Assembly: GCA_937873395.1 (NCBI GenBank)
Contig: CALMYH010000168.1
Span: 1-45,461 of the forward strand
Direction of reading: 5' to 3'
DNA length: 45,461 nucleotides
Source of the DNA: an uncultured Burkholderiales bacterium
GTDB taxonomy: Bacteria; Pseudomonadota; Gammaproteobacteria; Burkholderiales; Burkholderiaceae_C
Shown: piece by piece, positions 24,028-42,485 of the stretch
Layout: every line of letters starts with the position of its first letter
How positions within the stretch are numbered: position 1 is the first letter of the stretch
Program-made: the position numbers and the translations under genes
Notes under the pieces: generated by a model
The model's input: the letters and a program-made list of their open reading frames with translations, nothing else
Told to the model about the DNA's origin: nothing
The model's database searches: none

Positions 24028-24041
24028 GGTCGTTTTACGGT

Positions 24042-26189: not shown

Positions 26190-28205
26190 ATGGCTGCGAT
26201 GTCTCTGACCACCCTGCCTCGTGACACCCGCGACACGCTGTTCCTGCTGGCGGTGATCGCCTGGGTGGTCATGATGCAGATCGGACACATTCCATGGTGG
26301 TGCACGGCACTGGCCTTTGGCATCCTGGGCTGGCGCACCGTGCTGAGCTGGCGGGGCGCCGCCTTGCCTGGCTGGTTCCCCAGACTGGTGCTGCTGGCCC
26401 TGACCCTGGGCGCGACCTGGATGACCCACCGCACCATCCTGGGGCGAGATGCCGGGGTGACCCTGATTGTGGTGCTGCTGGCCCTCAAGACACTGGAGAT
26501 GCGCGCGCGCCGCGACGCCTTTGTGGTGTTCTTCCTGGCCTTCTTCACGCTGCTGACCCATTTCTTCTACTCCCAGTCGCTGCTGACCGCCGTGGGGATT
26601 CTGCTGGCCCTGCTGGGCCTGCTGACGGCCCTGGTGAATGCCCACATGCCGGTGGGGCGCCCGCCCCTGCGGCGGGTGGCCGGCATCGCCACCGGCATGG
26701 CGGCCCTGGGCCTGCCGGTGATGCTGGTGCTGTTCCTCCTGTTCCCGCGCATGGCACCGCTGTGGGGCGTGCCGGGCAGCGAAACCCTGGGGCGCAGCGG
26801 CCTGTCCGAGGAGATGCGGGTCGGGGAGATCGCCGAGCTGGTGCTCAACGAGGACATCGCTTTCCGGGTGAAATTCGATGGTGAGGTGCCGCCGCAGGGA
26901 GCGATGTATTTCCGCGGGCCGGTGCTGGGTGACTTCGACGGCGTGCGCTGGCGCCCGCAGCGATCGGCCTTCCCGCCCGCCATGGCCCTGCCTGTCGACC
27001 TGCGACTGGAAGGTGAGCCGGTGCGTTACGAAGTCACGCTCGAGCCCCAGCGACGACCCTGGCTGTTCGTGCTGGAGGCCACGGCGCAGGCACCCGATCT
27101 GCCGGGGCTGCAGCCGACGATGACGCGCGACCTGCAATGGAAGACGACCCGCCCGATCTTCGAGATGGTGCGCTACCGGGCCGAGAGCCACCCCCGCTTC
27201 AGCCATGGGCCGCGCGAGTCCATGCTGGGCCTGCAGGACTACCTGGAGCTGCCGCCGGGCTTCAACCCGCGCACCCTGGCGCTGGCGCAAGAGCTGCGAC
27301 GCCAGACCGGCGCCGGCCCGGACGCCGCGCCGGCGGCGCTGGCGGCTGTGATCGAGCGACTGCGCACCGGCGGCTACGCCTACACGCTGGAGCCGGGGGT
27401 GTTCGGTCAGCACGCGGCCGACGAATTCTGGTTCGACCGCCGCGAGGGCTTCTGCGAACACATCGCCTCCAGCTTCGTCATCCTGATGCGGGCCATGGAC
27501 ATCCCGGCCCGGGTGGTCACCGGCTACCAGGGGGGCGAGATCAACGCCATCGACGGCTACTGGGTGGTGCGCCAGCGCGATGCCCATGCCTGGGCCGAGA
27601 TCTGGCTGAGCGGTCAGGGCTGGGTGCGTGTCGATCCGACGGCTGCGGTGGCGCAGTGGCGCATCGGCTCGCTGGACCGACTGCGCCCGGCTCCGGGTGC
27701 ACTGGCCGGCCTGGTCGGCACCCTGGACCCGACCCTGCTGGCGCAGATGCGCGCGGTGTGGGACGCGGTCAACAACCGCTGGAATCAGTGGGTGCTCAAT
27801 TACACCCAGGGCCAGCAGCTGGACCTGCTGCGGCGGCTGGGACTCTCGTCCCCGCAATGGACCGACCTGCTGTACGCGCTGCTGGCGGTGCTGGTGCTGG
27901 CCAGCCTGACCGGCGCCGCCTGGCAACTCTGGGAGCGGCAACAGCATGACCCGTGGCTGCGCCTGCTCGACAAGGCGCGCCGCGAACTGGCCAGGCAGGG
28001 GCTGCAGGACAACGCGCAACTGCCTCCCCGGGCGCTGGCCGAAAAAGTATTGCGGCATTTTGGCGACACCCCCTTCGCCCGGGACGTGAAACAGTGGCTG
28101 TTGCGGCTCGAAAGGTGGCGCTACGGCAAGGAGCGCGAGAGCTCGCTCGCTACACTGCGGGAGGACTTCAGACGGCTGCCCTGGCGGGCCAAGGACCCCC
28201 GGTGA
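26190..28205 (+). CDS. tgpA: TgpA-type membrane transglutaminase (DUF3488-transglutaminase)
   Basis: 671-residue inner-membrane protein. About five or six N-terminal helices (residues 10-190, DUF3488) precede a periplasmic transglutaminase-like domain with its triad intact: C422 (REGFCEHIASSF), H466 (DAHAWAEIW) and D482 (VRVDPT). A last helix lies at about 555-577, then a cytoplasmic DUF4129-like tail. It may cross-link or cleave proteins in the envelope; the P. aeruginosa homologue is essential. ATG 26190 is the first in frame after a TGA; no strong ribosome-binding site. Its stop overlaps the mltB start by one base (TGATG). The cytosolic and membrane partners moxR and DUF58 lie upstream. 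Confidence 0.92.
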   Translation: MAAMSLTTLPRDTRDTLFLLAVIAWVVMMQIGHIPWWCTALAFGILGWRTVLSWRGAALPGWFPRLVLLALTLGATWMTHRTILGRDAGVTLIVVLLALKTLEMRARRDAFVVFFLAFFTLLTHFFYSQSLLTAVGILLALLGLLTALVNAHMPVGRPPLRRVAGIATGMAALGLPVMLVLFLLFPRMAPLWGVPGSETLGRSGLSEEMRVGEIAELVLNEDIAFRVKFDGEVPPQGAMYFRGPVLGDFDGVRWRPQRSAFPPAMALPVDLRLEGEPVRYEVTLEPQRRPWLFVLEATAQAPDLPGLQPTMTRDLQWKTTRPIFEMVRYRAESHPRFSHGPRESMLGLQDYLELPPGFNPRTLALAQELRRQTGAGPDAAPAALAAVIERLRTGGYAYTLEPGVFGQHAADEFWFDRREGFCEHIASSFVILMRAMDIPARVVTGYQGGEINAIDGYWVVRQRDAHAWAEIWLSGQGWVRVDPTAAVAQWRIGSLDRLRPAPGALAGLVGTLDPTLLAQMRAVWDAVNNRWNQWVLNYTQGQQLDLLRRLGLSSPQWTDLLYALLAVLVLASLTGAAWQLWERQQHDPWLRLLDKARRELARQGLQDNAQLPPRALAEKVLRHFGDTPFARDVKQWLLRLERWRYGKERESSLATLREDFRRLPWRAKDPR

Positions 28206-29305
28206 TGACGACCACTCCCACCTCGCTGCATGCCTTGCGCAAATTGACCACCCTGGGGCTGTGCCTGGTGGCCGGTGCCGCGCTGGCCACCACCACACCG
28301 CGACCGACCGCGGGCAAACAGCGCCCTCCCCCGGTGAACGAGGTACGCTACGACCAGCACGTCGAGGCCACGGCCTTTGCCCAGGAGGTGGCACAGCGCA
28401 ACGGCTGGGACCCGGTGTGGGTTCGCGAGCAGATCGGACAGGCGCGGCACCTGCCCAGCGTGGTCAGGCTGGTTCTGCCGGCCCCTGCCGGCACGCCCAA
28501 GAACTGGGGCGCCTACCGGGCCCGCTTCATCGAGCCCCGTCGCATCCAGGCGGGACTGCGCTACTGGCAAGCCCACCGCGACACGCTGGCGCGTGCCGAA
28601 GCCGAATTCGGCGTGCCGGCCAGCCTGATCGTCGGTGTCATCGGCGTCGAGACCCTGTACGGCCAGCATCTGGGACAGTTTCGCGTGCTCGATGCCCTGT
28701 CCACGCTGGCCTTCGACTTCCCGTCGGCCCACCCGCGCGCGCAGGCACGCCAGGCCCTGTTTCGCGACGAACTGGAACAGCTCCTGAAGCTTGCCCGGCA
28801 ATTGGGGCGCGATCCGGCAACGCTGCGCGGCAGCTTTGCCGGCGCCATGGGCTGGCCCCAGTTCCTGCCCAGCAGCTGGCTGCGTTACGCCATCGATTTC
28901 GACGACGACGGCCGGGTCGACCTGTTCGACAGCCAGGCCGATGTGATCGGGTCGGTGGCCAACTACTTCAAGGCCTTCGGCTGGCAGACCGGCATGCCCA
29001 CCCATTACCCGGTGCAGTTTGACCGCGCACGCCTTGACCTGCCCACCTTGCTGGCGCCCGACATCCGGCCCACGTTCGACGCCGACACCTTCGAAGCCCT
29101 GGGTGTCCGGCTGGAGGGTCAGGCCCGCCAGCACTCCGGACCGATGGCGCTGGTCGAACTGGAGAACGGCGAGGCGCCGCGCAGCTATGTCGCCGGCACG
29201 CAGAATTTCTACGTCGTCACCCGCTACAACTGGAGCAGCTACTACGCCCTGGCGGTGATCGAACTGGGCGAGACCATCGAAGTCCTGCTTGAACCCGGAC
29301 GATGA
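28205..29305 (+). CDS. mltB: Membrane-bound lytic murein transglycosylase B
   Basis: 366-residue lytic transglycosylase that cuts peptidoglycan glycan strands to 1,6-anhydro ends. An N-terminal signal (about 10-30, LTTLGLCLVAGAALA) directs export; LGLC is a poor lipobox, so lipidation is uncertain. The catalytic Glu is E149 in VIGVETLYGQ. GSFAGAMGWPQFLPSSW and IDFDDDGRVDLFDSQADVIGSVANYF are typical MltB stretches, the latter containing the EF-hand-like region. Coupled to tgpA by a one-base overlap, which hints that the transglutaminase cluster is linked to the cell wall. Convergent with the next gene. Confidence 0.94.
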   Translation: MTTTPTSLHALRKLTTLGLCLVAGAALATTTPRPTAGKQRPPPVNEVRYDQHVEATAFAQEVAQRNGWDPVWVREQIGQARHLPSVVRLVLPAPAGTPKNWGAYRARFIEPRRIQAGLRYWQAHRDTLARAEAEFGVPASLIVGVIGVETLYGQHLGQFRVLDALSTLAFDFPSAHPRAQARQALFRDELEQLLKLARQLGRDPATLRGSFAGAMGWPQFLPSSWLRYAIDFDDDGRVDLFDSQADVIGSVANYFKAFGWQTGMPTHYPVQFDRARLDLPTLLAPDIRPTFDADTFEALGVRLEGQARQHSGPMALVELENGEAPRSYVAGTQNFYVVTRYNWSSYYALAVIELGETIEVLLEPGR

Positions 29306-29323: not shown

Positions 29324-30163
29324 TCAGGCAGACAAGGGTTCGATCCTGATCTCCACCTCGAGGCGCTCCCGACCACCGCCGCGCCGCAGCCCCTTGACCG
29401 GCAGGCAGGCCGCGTAATCGGTGGCCGCGGCGACCCGGATGTGGCGCTCGTCGGTCGGGCACCGATGGGTGACGTCCAGGCTGAGCCAACGCCGCTCGGC
29501 CACATCGATGCAGACATCGACCCAGGCGTGGCTGGCCAGTTCGGGTTCGTTGGCGGCGTAGAAATAGCCGCTGACGTAACGCGCTGGCCAGCCGATGCTG
29601 CGGCACACGGCCACCATCACATGGGCCTGGTCCTGGCACACGCCAAGCCCCCAGTCAAAGGCCTCCAGGGCCGTGGTCTCGACGCTGGTACTGCCCTTGC
29701 GATAGGCCACCTTGTCGGCCACTGCCGAAGCCAGCGCCACCAGTGAGGCGAGCGACGGCCCCTCGCCACCCTCCGGTTCCTCGGCCAGGCCGGGCACGTT
29801 CGCCCGGGCCCAGACGGCCATGCGCGGGTGTGGCTCGGCCAGGGGGGTCGAGCGCAGGTAGAACGCCGGTGGCGGTGTGCGCCCGGTGTCGGTGACCACA
29901 GCAACACCGAGCGTCTGCACCACGCCCCGCGCATCGATGACCTGCTCGCGCAAATCCTGTTCCGGACGGGCCACCAGGCTGTAGCTATGGACCCGGTTGC
30001 CCTGGCCGTCCGGCTGGGCATGGAGCGGCGCGGGCGTGCGCACATCCCATCCCTGCACGGTCTGCGCAGCACCGCTGACCGGCCACAGGTGCAGGGTCTG
30101 CACCGAATAGAGCAGCGGTTCGGTGTAGGTGTAGCGGGTGGTGTGGCGAACAGACAGTCTCAT
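29324..30163 (-). CDS. Transglutaminase-family protein (set 1)
   Basis: 279 residues, no signal peptide. An N-terminal beta-sandwich domain (MRLSVRHTTRYTYTEPLLYS) is followed by a transglutaminase core with an intact triad: C176 (GLGVCQDQAHVMV), H212 (SHAWVDV) and D230 (SLDVTH). Such soluble bacterial proteins are predicted amidases or transglutaminases acting on peptides. Third gene of the minus-strand set ATP-grasp-alpha-E-transglutaminase, 64 bases after alpha-E. The ATG at 30163 matches the usual family start; an upstream in-frame extension to 30271 is not homologous in look. Confidence 0.9.
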   Translation of the reverse strand: MRLSVRHTTRYTYTEPLLYSVQTLHLWPVSGAAQTVQGWDVRTPAPLHAQPDGQGNRVHSYSLVARPEQDLREQVIDARGVVQTLGVAVVTDTGRTPPPAFYLRSTPLAEPHPRMAVWARANVPGLAEEPEGGEGPSLASLVALASAVADKVAYRKGSTSVETTALEAFDWGLGVCQDQAHVMVAVCRSIGWPARYVSGYFYAANEPELASHAWVDVCIDVAERRWLSLDVTHRCPTDERHIRVAAATDYAACLPVKGLRRGGGRERLEVEIRIEPLSA

Positions 30164-30227
30164 CGGCAGGCAGGCTCCGGGACGTGCCGGACCCCTGCAT
30201 TGTGCCTGCTGCCGGCGCGGTGGCCAG

Positions 30228-31193
30228 TCAGTGGACCGAGGGCACCAGGAAGTCCTGGCTGATCCGGCCACCGAGCTCGTTGACCCGGTCCAGGAACTGC
30301 GTCAGGAAGGCGTGCAGTCCGGTGGACAGGATTTCGTCGATGCGCGCGTACTGCAGGTCCGCCCGCAACTTGCCGGCCCGGCGCAGGGTCTCCTGCGAAT
30401 GGTCGTTGGCCACCACATTGAGGTTGTTCACCACCTCGTTGAGGCTGGCGGCCAGGCTGCGCGGCATGTCGGCGCGCAGGATCAGCAGTTCGGCCACCCG
30501 CTCGGGCGTGATCACGTCGCGGTACACCTTGCGGTAGACCTCGAAGGCGGAGACCGAGCGCAGGATGGCGCTCCAGTGGTAGAAGTCGTACTCCTGGTCA
30601 AGCTCGCTGGCGGCGCCGAAGAAATCGCTCTGCACGGCGTGGAACTTCACATCCAGCAGACGCGCGGTGTTGTCGGCCCGCTCCAGGAAGGTGCCCATGC
30701 GGTAGAAATGGAAAGCTTCGTCCTGCAGCATGGTGCCGATGGCCACGCCCCGCGAGAGGTGTGAACGGTGCTTGACCCACTCGAAGAAGGCCCCCGGATC
30801 GCGCTCGAAGTCGCGCGTCTTGAGGTAGCCCATCAGCTTGAGCCAGGTGGCGTTCTGGGTTTCCCAGAATTCGGTCGTCAGCGTGCCCCGCACCGCGCGC
30901 GCGTTCTCCCGGGCCGCCCGCAGGCAGGAGACGATGCTGGACGGGTTGTTCTCGTCGCGCACCATGAAGTCCAGCACGTTGCGCTGCACGATGGCCCCGT
31001 CGCCATAGCGGGCCCGGAAGGTGGGCAGCAGTTCGCTGATGGACAACAGTCCCTCCCAGCCGAACTGGGCCACGGCGGCGGACTGCGGCAACAGCGCGGT
31101 CTGGTAATTGACATCGAGCATGCGCGCGGTGTTCTCGGCCCGCTCGGTATAGCGGGACATCCAGAAAAGGTGGTCGGCGGTACGGGATAGCAT
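30228..31193 (-). CDS. Alpha-E domain protein (DUF403, set 1)
   Basis: 321-residue all-helical protein of the alpha-E family (named for conserved Glu residues). The opening MLSRTADHLFWMSRYTERAEN is the family signature and is shared with the C-terminal domain of the fusion protein at 38824-41475. Further charged motifs are FHFYRMGTFLERADNTARLLDVK and AELLILRADMPRSLAASL. Function unknown; always found with circularly permuted ATP-grasp proteins, so a partner or scaffold role is inferred. It starts 4 bases after the stop of the ATP-grasp gene. Confidence 0.92.
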   Translation of the reverse strand: MLSRTADHLFWMSRYTERAENTARMLDVNYQTALLPQSAAVAQFGWEGLLSISELLPTFRARYGDGAIVQRNVLDFMVRDENNPSSIVSCLRAARENARAVRGTLTTEFWETQNATWLKLMGYLKTRDFERDPGAFFEWVKHRSHLSRGVAIGTMLQDEAFHFYRMGTFLERADNTARLLDVKFHAVQSDFFGAASELDQEYDFYHWSAILRSVSAFEVYRKVYRDVITPERVAELLILRADMPRSLAASLNEVVNNLNVVANDHSQETLRRAGKLRADLQYARIDEILSTGLHAFLTQFLDRVNELGGRISQDFLVPSVH

Positions 31194-31197
31194 GCTG

Positions 31198-32637
31198 TCA
31201 GTTCTCCAGAATCCAGGTGTCCTTGGTGCCACCGCCCTGTGACGAGTTCACGACCAGGGAGCCTTCCTTCAGCGCCACCCGGGTCAGGCCACCAGGCACC
31301 ATCTGCACCTCGGTGCCGCTGAGCACGAAGGGCCGCAGGTCGATGTGGCGCGGCGCAATGCCGCTGTCGACAAAGGTCGGGCAGGTGGACAGGCTCAGGG
31401 TCGGCTGGGCGATGTAGCCATCGGGCCGTGCAACAACGGCCTTGCGGAAATCTTCGATCTCCTGCGCCGTCGATGCCGGGCCGACCAGCATGCCGTAGCC
31501 GCCGGCACCATGCACCTCCTTGACCACCAGGTCCTTGAGGTTCGCCAGGATGTACTTCAGGTCTTCCGGGTCGCGTCCCATGAAGGTCGGCACGTTGCTC
31601 AGGATCGGTTTCTGTCCCAGGTAGAAGTCGATCATCTTGGGCACGTAGGGGTAGATCGACTTGTCGTCCGCCACGCCGGTGCCGACCGCATTGCAGATGG
31701 CCACGTTGCCGCTGCGGTAGACCCCCAGCAGACCGGCACAGCCCAGGGAGGAGTCGGGCCGGAACACCAGCGGGTCCAGGAAGTCGTCGTCCACGCGGCG
31801 GTAGATCACGTCCACGCGCCTGGGCCCCTTGGTGGTGCGCATGTAGACGAAGTTGTCCTTGACGAAGAGGTCCTGGCCTTCGACCAGCTCCACGCCCATC
31901 TGCTGGGCCAGGAAGGCATGCTCGAAGTAGGCGCTGTTGTACATGCCAGGTGTCAGCACCACCACGGTGGGCTCGGCCGTGGTGGCCGGGCTGACCGCAC
32001 GCAGGGTTTCCAGCAGCAGGTCGGGGTAATGGGCCACCGGCGCCACCCGGTTTTCGCTGAACAGGTCCGGGAACAGCCGCATCATCATCTTGCGGTCTTC
32101 CAGCATGTAGCTCACGCCACTGGGCACGCGCAGGTTGTCTTCCAGCACGTAGTACTCGCCCACCCCGTCGCTGTTGGGCGCGCGCACGATGTCGATGCCG
32201 GCGATGTGCGAGTAGACCCCGCAAGGCACGTCCACGCCCATCATCTCGGGGCGGAACTGGGCATTCTGGAAGATCTGGTCGGCCGGGACGATGCCGGCCT
32301 TGATGATCTCCTGGTCATGGTAGACGTCGTGAATGAAGCGGTTGAGGGCCGTCACCCGCTGCACCAGCCCCTCTTCCATGCGGTCCCATTCGGCGGCCGG
32401 AATGATGCGCGGGATCAGGTCGAAGGGAATCAGGCGCTCGGTGCCGGCACCGTCTTCGTCCTTGGCGCCATAGACGGCGAAGGTGATGCCGACCCGCCGG
32501 AAGATCATCTCCGCCTCTTCGCGCCGGGCCGCCATGACCTCCGGGGGCTGCTGGGAAAGCCAGCGCGCATAGCTTTCATAGTGGGCCCGCACCTCCCCTT
32601 CGGAGGCGTTCATCTCGTCAAACATCGGTCGGGTCAT
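31198..32637 (-). CDS. Circularly permuted ATP-grasp protein (set 1)
   Basis: 479 residues of the DUF404/DUF407 family, a circularly permuted ATP-grasp fold predicted to ligate a carboxylate to an amine. Expected ATP/metal residues are visible: E166-D167-N168 in VLEDNLRVPSG, K373 in VVKEVHGAGGYG with its glycine-rich loop, and the RMVPGG-like stretch VQMVPGGLTRVALKEGSLVV near the end. So it looks catalytically competent. AGGAG precedes the ATG at 32637. First gene of the minus-strand set. The substrate is unknown; comparative work proposes peptide or amino-acid tag synthesis. Confidence 0.92.
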   Translation of the reverse strand: MTRPMFDEMNASEGEVRAHYESYARWLSQQPPEVMAARREEAEMIFRRVGITFAVYGAKDEDGAGTERLIPFDLIPRIIPAAEWDRMEEGLVQRVTALNRFIHDVYHDQEIIKAGIVPADQIFQNAQFRPEMMGVDVPCGVYSHIAGIDIVRAPNSDGVGEYYVLEDNLRVPSGVSYMLEDRKMMMRLFPDLFSENRVAPVAHYPDLLLETLRAVSPATTAEPTVVVLTPGMYNSAYFEHAFLAQQMGVELVEGQDLFVKDNFVYMRTTKGPRRVDVIYRRVDDDFLDPLVFRPDSSLGCAGLLGVYRSGNVAICNAVGTGVADDKSIYPYVPKMIDFYLGQKPILSNVPTFMGRDPEDLKYILANLKDLVVKEVHGAGGYGMLVGPASTAQEIEDFRKAVVARPDGYIAQPTLSLSTCPTFVDSGIAPRHIDLRPFVLSGTEVQMVPGGLTRVALKEGSLVVNSSQGGGTKDTWILEN

Positions 32638-32732
32638 GATCGGTTCTCTCCTCACGACAGCATAGCAAGGACTGGGCCAGACAAACACGAGATGGCCCGA
32701 ATCCGGCCGATTTTGGCGTTCCTGTGGGCCGC

Positions 32733-35213
32733 TCAGGGCGCCATCAGGTCCGTCGGCGGCCCGTCCGATCCGCCCGGGTGGTGCCAGTAGCGACGCCGCT
32801 CCTGCCGATGGCAGCGCATGTGCCCCGGCTCGTCGCTGCGCCACACGGCGGCGCCACAAGCGCCGCTGGCCACCCAGGGAATGCCCCGTTGCCGATAGCG
32901 CTCCAGCACACGGGGTGACGGATGATTGAAGCGGTTGAGGTGTCCGGCCTGGACGACCACCCAGGTCGGCTGCAGGGTGTTGAGCAGGACCGGACTGGAC
33001 GAAGTGTGGCTGCCGTGGTGGGGCGCCAGCAGCACCGTGGCGCGCATCTGCGGCCGGTCCAGCGCCAGACGCACCTCGTTCGCCGCATCGATGTCGCCTC
33101 CCAGCCAGGCGCTGTGCTCGCCGGCCACCACGTGCAGGACACAGGACATGGCGTTGCTGGAGAGCATGCCCCGGCCGTCCGGCCCGTAATGGGCAGGCTG
33201 CGGATGCAGCACTTCAAAACGGACGCCATCCCACTCCCAGCGCTGGCCGGCCACGCAGCGCCTGTCCGCCCGTTCGTCAAAAGACGAGAGCCAGTGCGCC
33301 TGCGGGTGCGCCCGACGGACCGCTTCCATGCCACCCGAATGGTCGCTGTCGCTGTGACTGACGACCACCTTGTCCAGCCGTACCCCCAGCGCATGCAGCA
33401 GGGGCACCACCACCCGGTCGCCGGCATCGCTGTGGGCCGAGTAGCGTGGCCCCGTGTCGTACAGCAGACTGTGACGGGCGGTGCGCACCAGCACCGCGCT
33501 GCCCTGGCCGACATCGATGGCCATCATTTCGAACTGGCCGGAAGGTGGCCGCTCGGGCGTCCAGAACAGGACCGGCCAGACCATGAGACAGCCGGCGACC
33601 CTGAACACCGGTGGCAAGCGCAGCACCAGGACGATGCCACCCAGCATGGCCAGCACCGCCATGACCCAGGGCGTGATGGGCCGGTAGACCGCCGACCAGG
33701 GCCAGCCGGCCAGCCACTGCAGCCAAAGGCCCAACACCTGCACGGCCCAGGCGGCCAGATCCCACAGCGGGGACCAAATCACGCCCAGCATGGCCAGCGG
33801 CGTCACCAGCAGGGTCACCCAGGGAATCGCCACCAGGTTGGCCACCAGACCGACCACCGAGAACTGCCCGAACAGCATCAGGGTCAGCGGGGCCAGGGCC
33901 ACCGTCACCACTCCCTGCTCACGCAGCAGGCCCAACCCGCGCGCCACGGCCTGGCGCCAGCGCGGGGGCGCAGCCGTGCCATCGGCAGGAGCCCCGGGCA
34001 AGGACCGGCCCGGGTCGCTCGCAAACAGGATGCCCACGGCGACGAAGCTGAGCCAGAAACCCGGGTGCATGAGCGCCCACGGGTCCAGCCACAGGACCAC
34101 CACCATGGCCATCAGCCAGACCATGGGCCAGGGCCACTGGCGGGCGTGCAGCCGCAGGCCGACGACCACGGCCAGCATGACCACCGTCCGCTGCGACGGC
34201 ACCGCCCAGCCGGAGAACAGCGCGTACAACGTCGCCAGTGCAATCCCGCCCACACCCGCGGCCCAAGGGGTGGGCACCGCCAGCAAAGCGCCCGGCCAGA
34301 AGCGTGCCAGACGGCGCCAGAGCCAACCGACCACCGCCACCGCCAGCCAGGCGAACATGGTCACATGCAGGCCCGAAATCGCCATCAGGTGCGCCACCCC
34401 GGTGATGCGAAAGATGTCCCAGTCCTCGCGCTCGATGGCGCTCTGGTTGCCCACCACCAGGGCCGACAGCACCCCGGCGTTCCGGCTGTTGGCCACCCGA
34501 TCCGCAATGGCCTGGTCGACCCGCTGTCGGGCCCGCTCCAGCGGAAACCCGGCGGTGCTGGCCAGGTGACGGGGTGGCGGGTCGCGCTGGCCATGGCGCA
34601 CGCTGCCGGTGGCGCCCACACCCTGCTCCCAAAGCCAGCGCTCGCGGTCGAAGCCGTGCGGATTGGCCAGCCCGTGCGGGCGTTTCAGCCGCACCGTGAG
34701 CTGCCAGCGGTCACCGGCCACCAGGGCCGGCGGCCCGGCGCCGGCCTGTGCGGACGGTTCTCGGGCCGGGGACGGGAACCGGTACCAGCCGAGCAGCAGG
34801 CGGGGCGGCACCGGCACCACTCGCCCCTCGTGCTCAGCCCGCTCGACCTCGAACTCGAAACGCACGCCTTGGGCGGTCCGGACCGGCAACGCCGCCACCC
34901 GTCCGGTCACCTGCAGGTTCACGTTCTCCAGCTCGGTGTCCAGAGACTGTCCGGCGTGCAGGGCGGCCCGCCAGCCGGTCGATCCCCCGCCCGCGAGCAG
35001 GGCGGCCAGCAACCAGACCAGCGTCCGAGCCCTGCCATGGCGGCGGCCGCTGAGCGCCAGCAAGGTCAGGGAGGCGGACAGCAAAAGGCAGGCGGCATAG
35101 GCCGACCCGGTCCACAGCACCGTCTGCTGCAGTTGAAGCGCCACGCCGACCACCCACGCCAGCAAAACCCGCACCAGCGGCAATCCGGGCCGCCCCGCAG
35201 CCGACCGGGTCAA
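32733..35213 (-). CDS. comEC: ComEC/Rec2-family DNA uptake channel
   Basis: Inner-membrane channel for single-stranded DNA during natural transformation. About 826 residues from TTG 35213: an N-terminal membrane pair, an OB-like soluble domain (about 110-250), the competence domain with LMAISGLHVTMFAWLAV and multiple helices, and a C-terminal metallo-beta-lactamase-like domain (VGQGSAVLVRTARHSLLYDTGP, SHSDSDHSGG, LLAPHHGSHTSSS). The start is uncertain: an ATG at 35324 would overlap the divergent DUF2126 gene's start at 35317 and add about 37 non-typical residues. The gene lies between the two transglutaminase sets, 95 bases from the ATP-grasp start. Confidence 0.9.
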   Translation of the reverse strand: MTRSAAGRPGLPLVRVLLAWVVGVALQLQQTVLWTGSAYAACLLLSASLTLLALSGRRHGRARTLVWLLAALLAGGGSTGWRAALHAGQSLDTELENVNLQVTGRVAALPVRTAQGVRFEFEVERAEHEGRVVPVPPRLLLGWYRFPSPAREPSAQAGAGPPALVAGDRWQLTVRLKRPHGLANPHGFDRERWLWEQGVGATGSVRHGQRDPPPRHLASTAGFPLERARQRVDQAIADRVANSRNAGVLSALVVGNQSAIEREDWDIFRITGVAHLMAISGLHVTMFAWLAVAVVGWLWRRLARFWPGALLAVPTPWAAGVGGIALATLYALFSGWAVPSQRTVVMLAVVVGLRLHARQWPWPMVWLMAMVVVLWLDPWALMHPGFWLSFVAVGILFASDPGRSLPGAPADGTAAPPRWRQAVARGLGLLREQGVVTVALAPLTLMLFGQFSVVGLVANLVAIPWVTLLVTPLAMLGVIWSPLWDLAAWAVQVLGLWLQWLAGWPWSAVYRPITPWVMAVLAMLGGIVLVLRLPPVFRVAGCLMVWPVLFWTPERPPSGQFEMMAIDVGQGSAVLVRTARHSLLYDTGPRYSAHSDAGDRVVVPLLHALGVRLDKVVVSHSDSDHSGGMEAVRRAHPQAHWLSSFDERADRRCVAGQRWEWDGVRFEVLHPQPAHYGPDGRGMLSSNAMSCVLHVVAGEHSAWLGGDIDAANEVRLALDRPQMRATVLLAPHHGSHTSSSPVLLNTLQPTWVVVQAGHLNRFNHPSPRVLERYRQRGIPWVASGACGAAVWRSDEPGHMRCHRQERRRYWHHPGGSDGPPTDLMAP

Positions 35214-35316
35214 GCCGTCACCACAAATGGCGCGAGTCTTGCTAGTCTTGTGTGCCGGCACACTTGGGCTGCCAGGTCGTTCATCCAAAAACTCCCTCCC
35301 CTCGAAAGTCGTTCGC

Positions 35317-38300
35317 ATGGCCATTCACGTCGCACTGAGCCACATCACCCATTACCGGTATGACCGCCCGGTCCGGCTCGGACCCCAGGTGGTGCGTCTT
35401 CGACCGGCGCCGCACAGCCGCACACGGGTGCTGGCCTACTCGCAGAAAATCGAACCGGCCACCCACTTCATCAACTGGCAGCAGGACCCGTTCGCCAACT
35501 ACCAGGCCAGGCTGGTGTTTCCGGAGCCGACCACCGAATTCAAGCTGACCATCGACCTGGTGGTCGAAATGGCGGTATACAACCCGTTCGACTTCTTTCT
35601 CGAGCCACGGGCCGAGAACTTCCCCTTTCTTTATGAAGAAGCGCAGCGCCAGGAGCTCTCGCCCTACCTGGCGACCGAGCCGCTGACGCCGCTGCTGCGC
35701 CACTACCTCGGGCAGGTGGACCGCAGCGAGCGTCGCACCATCGACTTCCTGGTCGACATCAACCAGCGCCTGCACAAGGACATCGCCTACACCATCCGCA
35801 TGGAGCCGGGTGTGCAGACACCCGAGGAGACCCTCAAGCTCAAAAGCGGCTCCTGCCGCGACTCCGGCTGGCTGCTGGTGCAGCTGTTGCGCCACCTGGG
35901 CCTGGCGGCGCGTTTCGTCTCCGGCTACCTCATCCAGCTCACGCCCGACGTCAAGTCGGTCGACGGCCCCAGCGGCCCGGAAGCCGATTTCACCGATCTG
36001 CACGCCTGGTGCGAGGTCTTCCTGCCGGGCGCCGGCTGGATCGGCCTGGATCCGACCTCGGGTCTGCTGGCCGGCGAGGGACACATCCCCCTGGCCTGCA
36101 CCCCGCAACCCTCCAGCGCCGCGCCGGTGGAAGGCGCCGTCGACGAGTGTGAGGTCGAGTTCAGCCACCACATGCAGGTGACGCGTGTCCACGAGTCACC
36201 GCGGGTGACCAAACCCTATACCGATGACCAGTGGGCCGGCATCCTCGCCCTGGGTGAACAGGTCGATGCCGACCTGGAGCGCAACGACGTGCGCCTGACC
36301 ATGGGGGGCGAGCCCACCTTCGTCGGCATCGGCGACCGCGATGCGGCGGAGTGGAACACCGACGCCCTCGGGCCGACCAAACGGGGCTACGCCACCGAAC
36401 TGCTGGGCCGGCTGCGCGAGCAATACGGCAGCGGCGGCTTTGTCCACATGGGACAGGGCAAGTGGTATCCGGGCGAACAGTTGCCGCGCTGGGCCCTGTC
36501 GGTGTTCTGGCGCGCCGACGGGCAGCCCTGCTGGCACGACGCCTCCCTGCTGGCCGACGAGAGGGACGCCGCCCACTACACCCACGAAGACGCCCACCGC
36601 TTCACCGTGGCCCTGGCACGCCAGCTGGGCCTGAGTCCGAAGTTCATCACCCCGGGTCACGAGGACACCTGGTATTACCTGTGGCGCGAGCGCAAGCTGC
36701 CGGTCAATGTCGACCCGTTCGACAGCAAGCTGGACGACGAACTCGAGCGCGCCCGCCTGCGGCGCGTGTTCAGCCAGGGCCTGGATGCCACCGTGGGCTA
36801 TGTGCTGCCCTTGCAGGCCTCGGTGCACGGCAGCCTGGACGCACACCGGGTCGCCGGTACCGTCTGGTCCACCGGCCCCTGGTTCTTCCGCGACGAGCGC
36901 ATGTACCTGATCCCGGGCGACTCCCCCATGGGCTACCGTCTGCCGCTGGACTCGCTGCCCTGGGTCTCGGCCGGCGATTACCCCTACCACATCGAGCAGG
37001 ACCCGCACAGCCCGCGCGCGCCCTTGCCCGGCAGCACCCCGCTGCGGCACCAGGTCCATCCGCACACGGTGGGCGGCGGTTTTGCCGAAGGTGGTACGGT
37101 GTCCATGCAGGGCAGCGACTACGAGGCCGTGGAGGGGGATGACGGCACGGCCAGCGGTGGCGAAAGCGGAGCCCAGGCAGTCCCGCATCCGCTCAGCGCA
37201 CGTCTGCCCCAGCGCGGCGAATCGGCGGCCTGGCTGACCCGCACCGCGCTGTGCGTGGAAGCGCGCGACCCGCAGCGCGCCAACGGACCGAAAGCCGAGA
37301 AGGAAAAAGGCGGGCGCAGCCAGCACCTGTACGTGTTCATGCCGCCCTTGCAGCAGCTGGAAGACTATCTCGACCTGCTGTCCGCGGTGGAAGCCACGGC
37401 GGCGGCCCTGGGCATGAAGATCGTGCTGGAAGGTTACCCGCCCCCGCGCGACCCGCGCCTGAAGACGCTGCAGGTCACCCCCGACCCCGGTGTCATCGAG
37501 GTCAACATCCACCCGGCGCACAACTGGGCCGAACTGGTCGAGCACACCGAGTTTCTCTACGAGGCCGCGCACCAGACGCGCCTGTGCGCCGAGAAGTTCA
37601 TGACCGACGGGCGGCACACCGGCACCGGGGGGGGCAACCACTTCGTGCTCGGCGGCGCCACCCCTGCGGATTCCCCCTTCCTGCGCCGCCCCGAACTGCT
37701 GGGCAGCCTGGTGGCCTACTGGCACAACCACCCGTCGCTGTCCTACCTGTTCTCCGGCCTGTTCATCGGACCGACCAGCCAGGCGCCGCGGGTCGACGAG
37801 GCCCGCAACGACCAGCTCTACGAGCTGGAAATCGCGCTTCAGCAGATCGAGAAAAACCGCCGGACCCATGGTCAACAGATGCCGCCCTGGCTGGTCGACC
37901 GAACGCTGCGCAACATCCTGATCGACGTCACCGGCAACACCCACCGCAGCGAGTTCTGCATCGACAAGCTTTACTCGCCCGACGGTCCCACCGGCCGTCT
38001 GGGGCTGCTGGAGCTGCGTGCCTTCGAGATGCCGCCACATGCCCGCATGAGCGTGGCCCAGCAGCTGCTGCTGCGTGCTCTGGTGGCGCGTTTCTGGCAG
38101 CAACCCTACACCGCCCGCCTGACCCGCTGGGGCACCGAGCTGCACGACCGCTTCCTCCTGCCCACTTTCGTGCGCATGGACTTCGAAGACGTCATCGCCG
38201 ACCTCAAGCGCTGCGGTTATGCCTTCGACATGGCCTGGTTCGAGCCCCACTTCGAGTTCCGCTTCCCGCTCGTGGGCGAAGTGGCGGCGCGCGGCATCGA

Positions 38301-38805
38301 GCTGACGCTGCGCAACGCGCTGGAGCCCTGGCACGTGATGGGCGAGGAAGGCGCGCCGGGAGGCACGGTGCGATATGTCGATTCGTCGCTGGAGCGGCTG
38401 GAGGTCAAGGTCAGCGGCTACAACGACAGCCGCTACGTCATCACCTGCAACGGCCATGCCTTGCCCCTGCAAAGCACCGGTCGCGCCGGCGAGTACGTGG
38501 CCAGCGTGCGCTACAAGGCCTGGAGCCCGCCATCGGCGCTGCACCCCTCGATACCCGCACACGCCCCCCTGACGTTCGACATCGTCGACAACTGGATGGA
38601 GCGCTCGCTCGGCGGCTGCCAGTACCACGTCTCGCACCCGGGCGGCCGCAACTACGACAGCTTCCCGGTCAATGCCTACGAAGCCGAGAGCCGCCGTCTG
38701 TCGCGCTTCTTCCAGATGGGCCACAGCACCGGCCGCCTGGTGGCCAGGCCGGCGCGGCCCAGCCGCGAATTCCCGTTCACGCTGGATCTGCGGCAGGCGG
38801 AATGA
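35317..38805 (+). CDS. Transglutaminase-DUF2126 fusion protein (set 2)
   Basis: 1162 residues from ATG 35317. Residues 1-290 are a transglutaminase-type unit (start MAIHVALSHITHYRYDRPVR) with triad C180 (SGSCRDSGW), H229 (DLHAWCEVF) and D245 (GLDPTSG). From about 330 to the end is DUF2126, beginning MGGEPTFVGIGDRDAAEWNT, with GQGKWYPGEQLPRWAL and EVNIHPAHNWAELVEHTEFLYE; it has been proposed as an amide-bond-forming ligase domain. A Gly/Ser/Glu-rich low-complexity insert lies at about 590-640. The fusion implies that the two activities act on one substrate. First gene of the plus-strand set; the next gene begins 18 bases later. Confidence 0.92.
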   Translation: MAIHVALSHITHYRYDRPVRLGPQVVRLRPAPHSRTRVLAYSQKIEPATHFINWQQDPFANYQARLVFPEPTTEFKLTIDLVVEMAVYNPFDFFLEPRAENFPFLYEEAQRQELSPYLATEPLTPLLRHYLGQVDRSERRTIDFLVDINQRLHKDIAYTIRMEPGVQTPEETLKLKSGSCRDSGWLLVQLLRHLGLAARFVSGYLIQLTPDVKSVDGPSGPEADFTDLHAWCEVFLPGAGWIGLDPTSGLLAGEGHIPLACTPQPSSAAPVEGAVDECEVEFSHHMQVTRVHESPRVTKPYTDDQWAGILALGEQVDADLERNDVRLTMGGEPTFVGIGDRDAAEWNTDALGPTKRGYATELLGRLREQYGSGGFVHMGQGKWYPGEQLPRWALSVFWRADGQPCWHDASLLADERDAAHYTHEDAHRFTVALARQLGLSPKFITPGHEDTWYYLWRERKLPVNVDPFDSKLDDELERARLRRVFSQGLDATVGYVLPLQASVHGSLDAHRVAGTVWSTGPWFFRDERMYLIPGDSPMGYRLPLDSLPWVSAGDYPYHIEQDPHSPRAPLPGSTPLRHQVHPHTVGGGFAEGGTVSMQGSDYEAVEGDDGTASGGESGAQAVPHPLSARLPQRGESAAWLTRTALCVEARDPQRANGPKAEKEKGGRSQHLYVFMPPLQQLEDYLDLLSAVEATAAALGMKIVLEGYPPPRDPRLKTLQVTPDPGVIEVNIHPAHNWAELVEHTEFLYEAAHQTRLCAEKFMTDGRHTGTGGGNHFVLGGATPADSPFLRRPELLGSLVAYWHNHPSLSYLFSGLFIGPTSQAPRVDEARNDQLYELEIALQQIEKNRRTHGQQMPPWLVDRTLRNILIDVTGNTHRSEFCIDKLYSPDGPTGRLGLLELRAFEMPPHARMSVAQQLLLRALVARFWQQPYTARLTRWGTELHDRFLLPTFVRMDFEDVIADLKRCGYAFDMAWFEPHFEFRFPLVGEVAARGIELTLRNALEPWHVMGEEGAPGGTVRYVDSSLERLEVKVSGYNDSRYVITCNGHALPLQSTGRAGEYVASVRYKAWSPPSALHPSIPAHAPLTFDIVDNWMERSLGGCQYHVSHPGGRNYDSFPVNAYEAESRRLSRFFQMGHSTGRLVARPARPSREFPFTLDLRQAE

Positions 38806-38823
38806 GCGGCGGTGATGTGACAG

Positions 38824-41475
38824 ATGACGCGCAGACCCGAGGCCGGGCCCGACCGGGCTGAGCTGCAACAGGCATACTCAGGTCCGGTGAACACCCCGTT
38901 TTCCGATTCGCTGTTTGATCTGGGCCCCGACTCGGCCTCGCCGGGCGACTGCGCACTGTCCCTGTCGATACCGGCGGACGCCGGCCACCTGGACGAACTG
39001 AGAGACGCCCAGGGCACGGGACTGGCACCGGCCTGGAACCGATTCTTCGATCACATCGGTCACGACGGCCTGGCCGACCTCGACCGCCGCCACCGCAACC
39101 TGCAGCGGCAGATCCGCGACAACGGCGTCACCTACAACGTCTATGCCGACGCTGCGGCCGGGCTGCAGCGCCCCTGGGCGCTGGATCTGTTCCCCATGAT
39201 CGTCGACACCGACGACTGGGCACACATCGAAGCCGGCGTGCTGCAGCGGGCACGGCTGCTCAACGCCATGATGGCCGACCTCTACGGTCCCGGCGAGCTG
39301 CTGCGGCGCGCATTGCTGCCGGCCGCGCTGGTGCAGGGACATCCGGGCTATCTGCGGGGCATGCAGGGTGTTCGACCGGCCGAAGATCACTGGCTGCACA
39401 TCATGGCCTTCGACCTGGCCCACGGGCCCGACGGCCGCTGGTCGGTGGTCGGTCAACGCACCGAAGCCCCGTCCGGCCTGGGCTACCTGCTGGAGAACCG
39501 CATCGCGGTCTCGCGCCAGTTCCCCAAAGCCTTTGCCGGGCTGCGGGTGCAGCGCCTGGCCGCCAGCTACCGCGCCCTGGTGGACAGCATCCGGCGCCTG
39601 GCCCCGCAAGGCGAACAGGCCCGCATCGCCCTGCTCACCCCGGGCCCCTACAACGAGACCTATTTCGAGCACGCCTACCTGGCGCGCTACCTGGGCATCG
39701 CCCTGGTCGAGGGCAACGACCTGACGGTACGCGACGAGCGGCTGTACCTCAAGACCTTGCGCGGGCTGGAACCGGTCCACGCGCTGATCAAACGCCTGGA
39801 CGACGAATGGCTCGACCCGCTGGAGCTGCGTCCCGACTCCACCCTGGGCGTGCCCGGCCTGCTGCAGGTCATCCGGGCCGGCAACGTCCTGCTGGCCAAC
39901 ACGCCCGGCTCGGCTCCTCTGGAATCCAGCGCCTTGCTCGGTTTTCTGCCGGCCATTGCCCAACACCTGCTCGGCGAGGCACTGACGCTGCCGTCGCTGC
40001 CCACCTGGTGGTGCGGCGAAGACGCGGCCCTGCGCGATGCCCTGCCCCTGCTGGGGCAAAGCGTGATCCGCCCGACCTACCCGCGCTCGGGCACCCGAAC
40101 CGTCATCGGCCAGGGCCTGCACGACCAGGCCATCGACGAATGGTCGGGCCGCCTGGTGCGCCACCCCGAGGAACACACCGTCCAGGCCTGGCAGCCCCTG
40201 TCCCAGACCCCAACCTGGGATGGCCAGCGCCTGCTGCCGCGTTCGGCCATGTTGCGCGTTTTCGCGCTGGCCGACGGGCCCCGCAGCTGGCGTGTGCTGC
40301 CGGGCGGACTGGTGCGCCTGGCACCACGCGGCCAGCTGGTGGCGGCGATGCAGCGCGGTGGCAGCAGCGCCGACTGCTGGGTGCTGACCCGGGGCGAGGT
40401 CGACAGTACCACCCTGCTGCAATCCCAGCCCAGTTCGCTCGCCATTGCCCAGCAGAAACAACCGGTCACCAGCCGCGCCGCCGAAAACCTGTTCTGGCTC
40501 GGCCGCTACACCGAACGCGCCGAAAACAGCGTGCGTCTGGCCCAGATCGCGCTCGACCACCTGGGCGGCGAAGAGCCCGGCTCCGGGCCGCTGCTGCAAT
40601 GGCTCTCGGCCGTGTCGCGCGAGAACGCCCTGGTGCTGCCCGACGTGCCCGATGCCCAGGTGGCCGCGCGCGTCTTCGCCCGCAGCCTGATCGCCAATCT
40701 CTGCCCGCGCCCGGACGACCCCATGGCCAGCCAGTCCTGCAGCGTGGGGTTCAACCTGCGGGCCATCAAATCGGCCGCCTCGCAGGTGCGCGAGCGCCTG
40801 TCGCAGGAACACTGGAACCTCATCGAACGCACCGAGGCCCAGTTCCGGCACGACTGCGACCGGCTGGCCAGCGGCGCCGAGTACGCCCAGGCGGAGGCCC
40901 TGACCGCCCTGCTGAACGCCAGCGAAATGCTGGCGGCCATCACCGGCTCCCAGACCGACCGCATGGTGCGCGACGACGGCTGGCGCATGCTGTCGGTGGG
41001 CCGGCACATCGAGCGCCTGGTCACCCTCGGCCGCGCGCTCGCGCTGGCGCTGGAACACGAGGCGGTGCACGACCCGGCTGGCTTTGAAGGCGTCATCGCC
41101 CTGTTCGACAGCACCATCACCTTCCATGCCCAGTACCAGCAGCGCCGCGACATGGTGGCGCTGGCCGATCTTCTGGTGATGGACCGGGACAACCCGCGCT
41201 CGATGGCCTGGGTGGTCCGGACCCTGCGATCGCGGCTGGCCAGGTTGTCGCAAAGCGCCACACCGCAGGATGCCGTGCTGGCCATGGGCCTGCCCGACCC
41301 CGACACCTGGGTGCTGACCGAGCTGAGCCACTGGCAGCGCGACCCACAGGGTCAGCGCCGCTGGTCCGCCTTGGCAGACCTGCTGGACGAATGCGAAGCC
41401 AGCGCAGTCGAGCTGTCCGACGAGATCACGCGGCTGCATTTCAGCCACGCCGACCAGCGCAAGCAGAGCATCTGA
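38824..41475 (+). CDS. Circularly permuted ATP-grasp/alpha-E fusion protein (set 2)
   Basis: 883 residues joining the two activities that are separate genes in the minus-strand set. The ATP-grasp-like part covers about 85-540 (QIRDNGVTYNVYAD onwards) and the alpha-E part about 550-870, opening SRAAENLFWLGRYTERAENS. Motifs differ from the stand-alone paralogue: VLEDNLRVPSG is replaced by VVGQRTEAPSG (G210 to G219 region), and the Lys/Gly-rich loop by VIRPTYPRSGTR (R416). The LENRIAVSRQFP and GPYNETYFEHAYLARYLGI stretches are kept. It may have altered or lost ligase chemistry, or the changes are subfamily-typical. GTG at 38887 is an alternative start; no strong ribosome-binding site supports either. 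Confidence 0.9.
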   Translation: MTRRPEAGPDRAELQQAYSGPVNTPFSDSLFDLGPDSASPGDCALSLSIPADAGHLDELRDAQGTGLAPAWNRFFDHIGHDGLADLDRRHRNLQRQIRDNGVTYNVYADAAAGLQRPWALDLFPMIVDTDDWAHIEAGVLQRARLLNAMMADLYGPGELLRRALLPAALVQGHPGYLRGMQGVRPAEDHWLHIMAFDLAHGPDGRWSVVGQRTEAPSGLGYLLENRIAVSRQFPKAFAGLRVQRLAASYRALVDSIRRLAPQGEQARIALLTPGPYNETYFEHAYLARYLGIALVEGNDLTVRDERLYLKTLRGLEPVHALIKRLDDEWLDPLELRPDSTLGVPGLLQVIRAGNVLLANTPGSAPLESSALLGFLPAIAQHLLGEALTLPSLPTWWCGEDAALRDALPLLGQSVIRPTYPRSGTRTVIGQGLHDQAIDEWSGRLVRHPEEHTVQAWQPLSQTPTWDGQRLLPRSAMLRVFALADGPRSWRVLPGGLVRLAPRGQLVAAMQRGGSSADCWVLTRGEVDSTTLLQSQPSSLAIAQQKQPVTSRAAENLFWLGRYTERAENSVRLAQIALDHLGGEEPGSGPLLQWLSAVSRENALVLPDVPDAQVAARVFARSLIANLCPRPDDPMASQSCSVGFNLRAIKSAASQVRERLSQEHWNLIERTEAQFRHDCDRLASGAEYAQAEALTALLNASEMLAAITGSQTDRMVRDDGWRMLSVGRHIERLVTLGRALALALEHEAVHDPAGFEGVIALFDSTITFHAQYQQRRDMVALADLLVMDRDNPRSMAWVVRTLRSRLARLSQSATPQDAVLAMGLPDPDTWVLTELSHWQRDPQGQRRWSALADLLDECEASAVELSDEITRLHFSHADQRKQSI

Positions 41476-41501
41476 GCCCGCTCCGATACCCCCCAAATCC
41501 C

Positions 41502-42485
41502 ATGCTGCTGCGCGTCGTCCACCAGACCCTCTACCGCTACCACGGCGCGGTTGACCTGGCCCAGCACATGACCTGCCTGTCGCCACGGGACATGCCCGGC
41601 CAGACCGTGCGGTCGCACCGGCTGACCGTGTCCCCCGAACCGGCCACCCGGCGGGGGCGCACCGATGCCTTCGGCAACCCCAGGGCTTTTTTTGCGCTGC
41701 AGGCGCCCCACGAACAGCTGGCGGTCCTGGCCGACTCGCTGATCGAGACGCGGCCCACGGCACCGCCTCCGGGGCCGCCCGGCTGGCACGACACGCCCTG
41801 GGAGGAGGTGCGCGAGCATTTCCGCTACCGGGTGCAGGCCCCCTACGACGCCGCTGGCGAGTTCCTGTTTCCTTCGCCCATGGCCCCCCGCGACGACGCC
41901 TTCGCCAGCTTCGCCCGCCGCTGTTTCACGCCGGGGCTGTCCCTGATCGCCGCCGCCCGGAACCTGTCGGGCCACATTCACCGCACGCTGCGTTACCAGG
42001 CGGCCAGCACCGAAGTGCACACCCCGCCCCTGCAGGCGTTGCGCCAGGGCAGCGGGGTCTGCCAGGACTTCGCCCACATCCTGATCGCCAGCCTGCGCAG
42101 CCTGGGCCTGCCGGCCCGCTACGTGAGCGGCTACCTGCTGACCCGACCACCGCCGGGTCAGGCACGCCTGATCGGCGCCGATGCATCCCACGCCTGGGCC
42201 TCCGTCTACCTGCCGCGCGTGGGGACGGACGCCGACGGGCCCTCGGGGGCCTGGTTCGACCTGGACCCCACCAACGACCGCAGCGGCTGGGACAGCCCCG
42301 GCGAAGACTACGTGACCCTGGCCATCGGCCGCGACTACACCGACGTCTCTCCCATGCGCGGCGTCATCCAGGGCAGCGCCCAGCACCGGCTGGAGGTGGC
42401 GGTGACCGTCGCGCCCCCCAGCGACCTGGACGAAGCCGCCTGGTACCCGCATGGCGCGCCGCTGCCCCCTCATGAAAACGCCTGA
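41502..42485 (+). CDS. Transglutaminase-family protein (set 2)
   Basis: 327 residues, soluble. N-terminal beta domain (MLLRVVHQTLYRYHGAVDLAQ) and transglutaminase core with triad C187 (GSGVCQDFAHIL), H230 (SHAWASVY) and D255 (FDLDPTND). It is a paralogue of the protein at 29324-30163; both cores carry the GVCQD and ARYVSGY motifs. Third gene of the plus-strand set, 26 bases after the fusion gene. Its partner paralogue keeps the same relative position, so the two sets look like an ancient duplication. Confidence 0.91.
   Translation: MLLRVVHQTLYRYHGAVDLAQHMTCLSPRDMPGQTVRSHRLTVSPEPATRRGRTDAFGNPRAFFALQAPHEQLAVLADSLIETRPTAPPPGPPGWHDTPWEEVREHFRYRVQAPYDAAGEFLFPSPMAPRDDAFASFARRCFTPGLSLIAAARNLSGHIHRTLRYQAASTEVHTPPLQALRQGSGVCQDFAHILIASLRSLGLPARYVSGYLLTRPPPGQARLIGADASHAWASVYLPRVGTDADGPSGAWFDLDPTNDRSGWDSPGEDYVTLAIGRDYTDVSPMRGVIQGSAQHRLEVAVTVAPPSDLDEAAWYPHGAPLPPHENA

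Follow-up and report, generated by a model that had tools for sequence, protein, structure and literature searches.

A degenerate, conserved ATP-grasp/alpha-E fusion and its split paralogue in a transglutaminase-DUF2126 locus of an uncultured Burkholderiales bacterium

The locus described here lies on contig CALMYH010000168.1 of assembly GCA_937873395.1, from an uncultured Burkholderiales bacterium (Burkholderiaceae_C) whose genome amounts to 3.70 Mb in 183 contigs; the whole stretch analyzed, positions 1 to 45,461 of the forward strand, is referred to as the window. It belongs to a class of loci, known but functionally unsolved, in which circularly permuted ATP-grasp, alpha-E, transglutaminase and DUF2126 proteins are encoded together, and it carries the ATP-grasp/alpha-E pair in two forms, split into two genes on the minus strand and fused into one gene on the plus strand. 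The ATP-grasp part of the fusion is degenerate, having lost residues expected for catalysis, and the dependence of the fused gene on the split one is one-way. The genes are the following, their lengths being those of open reading frames (ORFs) taken from likely start codons:

29324-30163, minus strand: transglutaminase of the split set, 279 amino acids (aa); Pfam Transglut_core and Bact_transglu_N
30228-31193, minus strand: alpha-E protein, split form, 321 aa; Pfam Alpha-E, 338 bits
31198-32637, minus strand: circularly permuted ATP-grasp, split form, 479 aa; Pfam CP_ATPgrasp_2, 547 bits
32733-35324, minus strand: comEC ORF between the two sets, exact start uncertain; NCBIfam ComEC_Rec2
35317-38805, plus strand: transglutaminase-DUF2126 fusion, putative amidoligase, 1162 aa; Pfam DUF2126, 1355 bits
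38824-41475, plus strand: ATP-grasp/alpha-E fusion, 883 aa; Pfam CP_ATPgrasp_2, 460 bits, and Alpha-E, 180 bits
41502-42485, plus strand: second stand-alone transglutaminase, after the fused gene, 327 aa; Pfam Bact_transglu_N and Transglut_core

The Pfam scores of all the locus domains are far over the cut-off, and Bact_transglu_N together with Transglut_core is present in three window proteins. These ORFs and matches bear out the six genes, with their positions, lengths and domains, given in an earlier note on this DNA, and the NCBIfam match identifies comEC between two divergent sets, as that note had stated. The start of the split ATP-grasp gene lies about 95 bases downstream of the comEC stop codon, on the same strand. 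CP_ATPgrasp_2 has just two matches in the whole genome, and the window contains both of them; a scan for promoters and terminators gave nothing above shuffled sequence.

The two forms of the ATP-grasp were compared in an alignment that held 35 split and 20 fused sequences at first, with eight short loci (later taken at full length) and sequences outside the length limits excluded, and that was extended to 122 split and 150 fused distinct rows. Residues are numbered along the 671-aa open frame of the window (192 less in the 479-aa split protein), and six core residues were scored (E358, N360, G571, G574, D625 and N656). E358 and N360, which form part of the motif LEDNLRxPSGVSY, are present in 122/122 split sequences and in 1/150 and 0/150 fused ones, respectively; D625 is found in 121/122 split vs. 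0/150 fused, N656 in 122/122 vs. 0/150, and the loop glycines G571 and G574 in 122/122 and 121/122 split sequences vs. 4/150 and 12/150 fused. All six residues occur in 121 of the 122 split ATP-grasps (the exception, L215, keeps four), while among the fused proteins 134 of the 150 have none, 15 have one and a single sequence has two, which means that every one of them lacks at least four. The split form thus shows the pattern of an active ATP-grasp ligase, with D…E-x-N, the lysine and the glycine-rich loop intact, and the fused form does not; in the window's fused copy, glycine replaces the glutamate, arginine replaces both the asparagine and the lysine, and the loop is changed, with the aspartate kept.

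The losses are strongest in the nucleotide half of the fused protein. Columns that are invariant in the split form are retained in at least 80% of the fused sequences at 23 of 36 positions in the central region, and at 3 of 21 in the region of the hinge, the lysine and the loop; D341, E431, R473, R627 and D665 are each retained in at least 142 of the 150. The losses extend to the alpha-E part of the fusion, among residues that are invariant in 33 split alpha-E rows (R196 is kept in 2/20, and arginine stands at E129 in 13/20), with its second ER motif kept in 20/20. The fused ATP-grasp has probably lost its activity, and the count of three potential ligase modules in the earlier note is unsupported, given that this domain lacks residues expected for catalysis. 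No statement that the fused ATP-grasp is degenerate or inactive was found in the literature searched, which did not include the text of Iyer et al. (2009), where it may be mentioned.

The fold appears to have been kept. The model of the fusion, built with 36 sequences, has a mean predicted local distance difference test score (pLDDT) of 84.2 and a fold of the glutathionylspermidine/glutathione synthetase type, and its Foldseek matches comprise 3N6X (the best), glutathione and homoglutathione synthetases, Cp1B (9CJN) and E. coli GspS, with E values of 1e-11 to 3e-9 for the glutathione and homoglutathione synthetases and Cp1B. The alpha-E part of the model had no match among the 50 listed of 312 Foldseek matches, and a sequence search with the split alpha-E protein, up to E 1, found no relative among solved structures. 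The entry 3N6X, a protein of Methylobacillus flagellatus whose PDB name, putative glutathionylspermidine synthase, itself calls the function putative, is a close relative of the split ATP-grasp (734 bits) and a more distant one of the fused form (253 bits), which lacks the core residues.

Two of the six core residues constitute an ExN pair that resembles the ExN needed for activity in the ligase Cp1B, whose R-x-D…E-x-N is similar to the D…E-x-N of the split form. In that enzyme, R139, D141, E163 and N165 surround the adenosine, and each change to alanine abolished or significantly attenuated the activity (PMC12568646). Two profile alignments of E. coli GspS with the split family were non-significant (probabilities of 0.2 and 0.1 of 100): the first covered 11 unrelated columns only, and the second, forced to full length, placed D318, E330, N332 and K533 onto D341, E358, N360 and K565. 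These four GspS residues are presumably ligands of that enzyme. The alignment places the same residues together but is non-significant, so what the lost residues mean is a strong inference and not a proof: the fused ATP-grasp very probably lacks the metal and ATP-binding residues expected of such a ligase.

The distribution of the two forms was followed in an order sample of 150 genomes and in a phylum sample (Pseudomonadota) of 249, with three fused-gene genomes common to both; a gene was considered fused when both domains lie in one open frame, and the order and phylum listings name only some of the match-free genomes. In the order sample, 80 genomes have CP_ATPgrasp_2 over the cut-off, 81 have alpha-E and 50 have DUF2126 matches. 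The fused gene is present in 27 genomes, including one fragment (G144), and is scattered over 16 families; the split gene accompanies it in 27/27 and a DUF2126 match in 26/27, the exception being G144, an assembly of 84% completeness that breaks off at the gene. DUF2126 without the fused gene occurs in 24 genomes; 23 of these have an ATP-grasp match and one (G073, 87% complete) has none, and in G136, also among the 24, DUF2126 is reduced to a remnant with stops.

In the phylum sample, 133 genomes have CP_ATPgrasp_2 over the cut-off and 71 have DUF2126, and comparison of the lists places all 71 among those with a CP_ATPgrasp_2 match. The fused gene was confirmed in 72 genomes (50 from the locus DNA, 18 by an alpha-E search, G294, and the three common to the order sample). 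Two more genomes, G232 and G297, were counted as probable fused only, on the basis of ATP-grasp fragments that lie next to DUF2126 at the ends of contigs; G113 and G114, with ATP-grasp fragments only, were counted as split. The split gene is present in 71/72 confirmed fused genomes, or 73/74 with the two probable fragments, and both samples together give 96 distinct confirmed fused genomes, 95 of them with the split gene. The converse does not hold, as the split ATP-grasp occurs without the fused gene in 53/80 carriers of the order sample and in 59/133 of the phylum sample. Fisher tests reject the independence of the two forms (p of 6e-9 in the order and about 1e-24 in the phylum, values not corrected for kinship). 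In the earlier note, correlated presence of the two sets was to support one common pathway and their independent occurrence to speak against it: the sets are linked, in that the fused gene comes with the split one, and independence is seen in one direction only. The number of ATP-grasp genes can be higher, as in L033 (genome G028), which has four matches, three split and one fused.

The neighborhood of the fused gene was scanned in the best 80 of 589 relatives, nearly all of them titled Burkholderiales and many short at the ends. The window's own gene order is the most frequent one; in such loci the first transglutaminase is often missing from the stretch. In the 55 loci with 9 kb or more of sequence upstream of the fused gene, the split ATP-grasp was found in 46, DUF2126 in 52, comEC in 32, comEC plus the split gene in 31 and Anbu in 5; on the other side, a second transglutaminase comes after the fused gene in 73 of the 75 relatives that reach at least 1.5 kb beyond it. 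The gene comEC separates the split ATP-grasp from the fused set in 29/80 loci and is located upstream of the split set in four (L124, L129, L131 and L135); given this recurrence, chance is an unlikely explanation for its position, and no functional link is claimed. Three loci (L046, L047 and L051) have ATP-grasp, alpha-E, Anbu and DUF2126 in a row from which the fused gene is absent. One locus titled Akkermansia muciniphila (L098) is a Burkholderiales-like copy, possibly because the assembly is mixed or carries a wrong label.

A tree of 272 sequences parts the 150 fused from the 122 split ATP-grasps by one branch with a support of 1.0 and with 0/272 misplaced; the paralogues are therefore old, or have spread as distinct forms. 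Recent local duplication is ruled out by this tree, and the earlier description of the locus as duplicated is misleading. Plasmid-borne sequences from Tsukamurella, Granulicella and Enterobacter obey the same division. In Tsukamurella (Actinomycetota, L231) a few genes separate the split set from comEA and comEC, and the fused gene stands beside a transglutaminase with no DUF2126 neighbor; a Granulicella (Acidobacteriota) plasmid has DUF2126, the fusion and a transglutaminase in a row; and a 90.7 kb IncFII plasmid of Enterobacter roggenkampii (L233) has the split ATP-grasp, alpha-E, DUF2126, the fusion and a transglutaminase in a row, which shows that plasmids can carry the system. Among the best 80 of 589 relatives, the named ones closest to the window's fusion are Hydrogenophaga flava and H. 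pseudoflava (77–78% identity), together with a Burkholderiales metagenome-assembled genome (75%).

Ratios of nonsynonymous to synonymous substitution rates (dN/dS) were computed with the relatives in L016, L057 and L058 as references, which do not each supply all the genes; the comEC row, which was out of frame, was excluded. They are 0.12–0.15 for the split ATP-grasp, 0.15–0.20 for alpha-E, 0.18–0.20 for the transglutaminase-DUF2126 protein, 0.22–0.31 for the fusion (three comparisons), 0.33 for the first transglutaminase (one comparison) and 0.37–0.42 for the last. The fused gene is under purifying selection. Its open frames and these ratios rule out a decaying pseudogene, and the decay of one set in most relatives, named in advance as a pattern that would count against a common pathway, was not observed.

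The transglutaminases also retain their catalytic residues. The Cys-His-Asp triad is present in all three window proteins, in agreement with the three triad-bearing thiol enzymes predicted before. For the first transglutaminase, the cysteine is kept in nine of nine aligned rows, the window's among them, and the histidine and aspartate in eight each, one row being gapped; for the transglutaminase-DUF2126 protein, all three are found in 27/27 aligned rows, the window included; and for the last, the counts are 19, 18 and 19 of 19, again with the window.

Taken together, these results tip the balance slightly toward the proposal that the fusion is a conserved pseudo-ATP-grasp, a non-catalytic partner of the split ligase and usually of DUF2126, so that the locus would have two likely live ligase modules and not three. 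The locus would then work as one ATP-driven amide-ligase system. The split ATP-grasp, with its glutathione-synthetase-like fold, would convert a carboxylate into an acyl phosphate and couple this to an amine, assisted by alpha-E as a partner, and the DUF2126 part would be a second, glutamine-synthetase-like ligase. The fusion, its fold kept, may hold the substrate or the active ligase and serve the split ligase and usually DUF2126, and the transglutaminase-like thiol enzymes, with their triads kept, would cut or transfer the amide product. In a Yersinia Anbu operon, from which the fused protein is absent, the ATP-grasp releases phosphate from ATP (PMC6376114). As regards the DUF2126 protein, another work notes a transglutaminase-ligase fusion of this type in Mycobacterium tuberculosis Rv2566 and traces the ligase assignment to sequence comparison (PMC2588565).

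A wider version of this proposal, put forward tentatively and with a little less than even confidence, is that the ATP-grasp/alpha-E fusions are a whole family of conserved pseudo-ligases dependent on a living split paralogue, and that the pair, usually with DUF2126, makes a peptide or amide tag. The degenerate pattern is documented for Pseudomonadota and, with a single protein per phylum, for Actinomycetota and Acidobacteriota.

Several observations weigh against the idea of a non-catalytic partner. What ties E358 and N360 to known metal ligands is a motif pattern and the forced, non-significant profile alignment. The linker of the fusion model has a pLDDT of about 45, and the model gives nothing firm on the ATP-grasp/alpha-E interface. 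The model of DUF2126 is poor (pLDDT 66.6), with glutamine-synthetase-type matches only at E above 0.5, and the significant structural matches of the transglutaminase-DUF2126 model are to the transglutaminase part only. In G294, a genome of 74% completeness, the fused gene is present and a split ATP-grasp match is missing; the contig with the fused gene has a stand-alone alpha-E fragment at its edge, as would be expected from truncation of a split set. In the phylum sample, fragments included, DUF2126 is present in 65/74 fused genomes and has no match in nine (G172, G259, G271, G294, G337, G339, G363, G369 and G381), and for this reason it is not an obligate partner of the fused gene. To our knowledge, no fused protein has been assayed. 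Published pull-downs with Anbu as bait gave no specific interaction among the operon proteins (PMC6376114).

Two further points in this direction bear on a different explanation, in which the fused ATP-grasp is not dead but has been re-tooled, with a DRTQ-like pattern as a new active site that serves another chemistry or another nucleotide-binding mode. The fused proteins have a conserved pattern of their own (arginine at N360 in 128/150 and glutamine at R362 in 135/150), compatible with a changed active site, and K565, the ATP-site lysine, is arginine in the window copy and is kept in 96/150; the purifying selection on the gene agrees with this view as well. Against it, the glycine-rich loop, both ExN residues, the aspartate of HxDLR and the asparagine of VVNSSQ have been lost together, and few of the split-invariant positions in the region of the hinge, the lysine and the loop are retained; re-tooling is regarded here as unlikely, though it is a serious contender.

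It is also improbable that the two sets belong to separate pathways that merely travel together through shared descent or joint transfer. The split set is indeed common in genomes without the fused set, and in some genomes (G125, G099 and G025) the split and fused genes either lie on separate contigs or have about 100 kb between them; however, the split gene is almost always present where the fused one is, despite the scatter of fused genes over so many families of the order sample. The view of the earlier note, in which three ligases, all of them active, and three thiol enzymes make up a single amide-building pathway, has the correlated presence, the neighborhood and the intact triads in its favor and is very improbable, because each of the 150 fused sequences lacks most of the core residues. 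If, on the other hand, the fusion is a non-catalytic partner, telling a potential canonical ATP-grasp from a preserved non-canonical one can guide the choice of the protein, the pair and the residues to assay, in a family whose genes are common, more than half of the sampled Pseudomonadota genomes having a match over the cut-off.

The system is known in outline. Iyer et al. in 2009 reportedly predicted a peptide-synthesis or modification system of circularly permuted ATP-grasp, alpha-E, transglutaminase and Anbu, of which DUF2126 is said to be a ligase part. The window shares its families and gene neighborhood, with ATP-grasp, alpha-E and transglutaminase genes together and DUF2126, by sequence, fused to a transglutaminase, and differs from it in that Anbu is outside the locus, beside mutS on another contig. 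The Anbu operon (PMC5666114, PMC6376114) has ATP-grasp, alpha-E and transglutaminase in a row, and the window's split set is of that type; in the window, however, no Anbu gene lies in the same operon, and DUF2126 and the fused gene are extra. The literature examined gave no named product of such operons. A possible phenotype lead comes from PMC7764037, where a table of marine bacteria with antinematode activity includes a metagenomic clone that carries genes for ATP-grasp, alpha-E, transglutaminase and protease.

The earlier note was right that the window encodes no Anbu-type peptidase: a genome search with PF00227 gave two places, neither on the window's contig. Absence from the organism as a whole was not borne out. 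One of the two places is taken to be hslV from its score, and the other is an Anbu-like ORF of 276 aa on another contig (L015:4935-5765, minus strand), which has mutS on one side and an alpha/beta-hydrolase-like gene on the other. This trio is also found, with Anbu likewise unlinked, in G049 (L017), of the same genus, and in G093 (L019), of the same family. The label is based on a Pfam match just at the cut-off (22.4 bits), on similarity to genes inside split sets elsewhere and on features typical of Anbu.

Other genes of the window deserve mention. A fourth transglutaminase-fold protein, TgpA, and the lytic transglycosylase MltB are encoded at 26190-29305 and adjoin the split set; a gene for a histone-deacetylase-family protein lies at 23074-24072, and a phage-type integrase gene is located at the window edge (142-1200).

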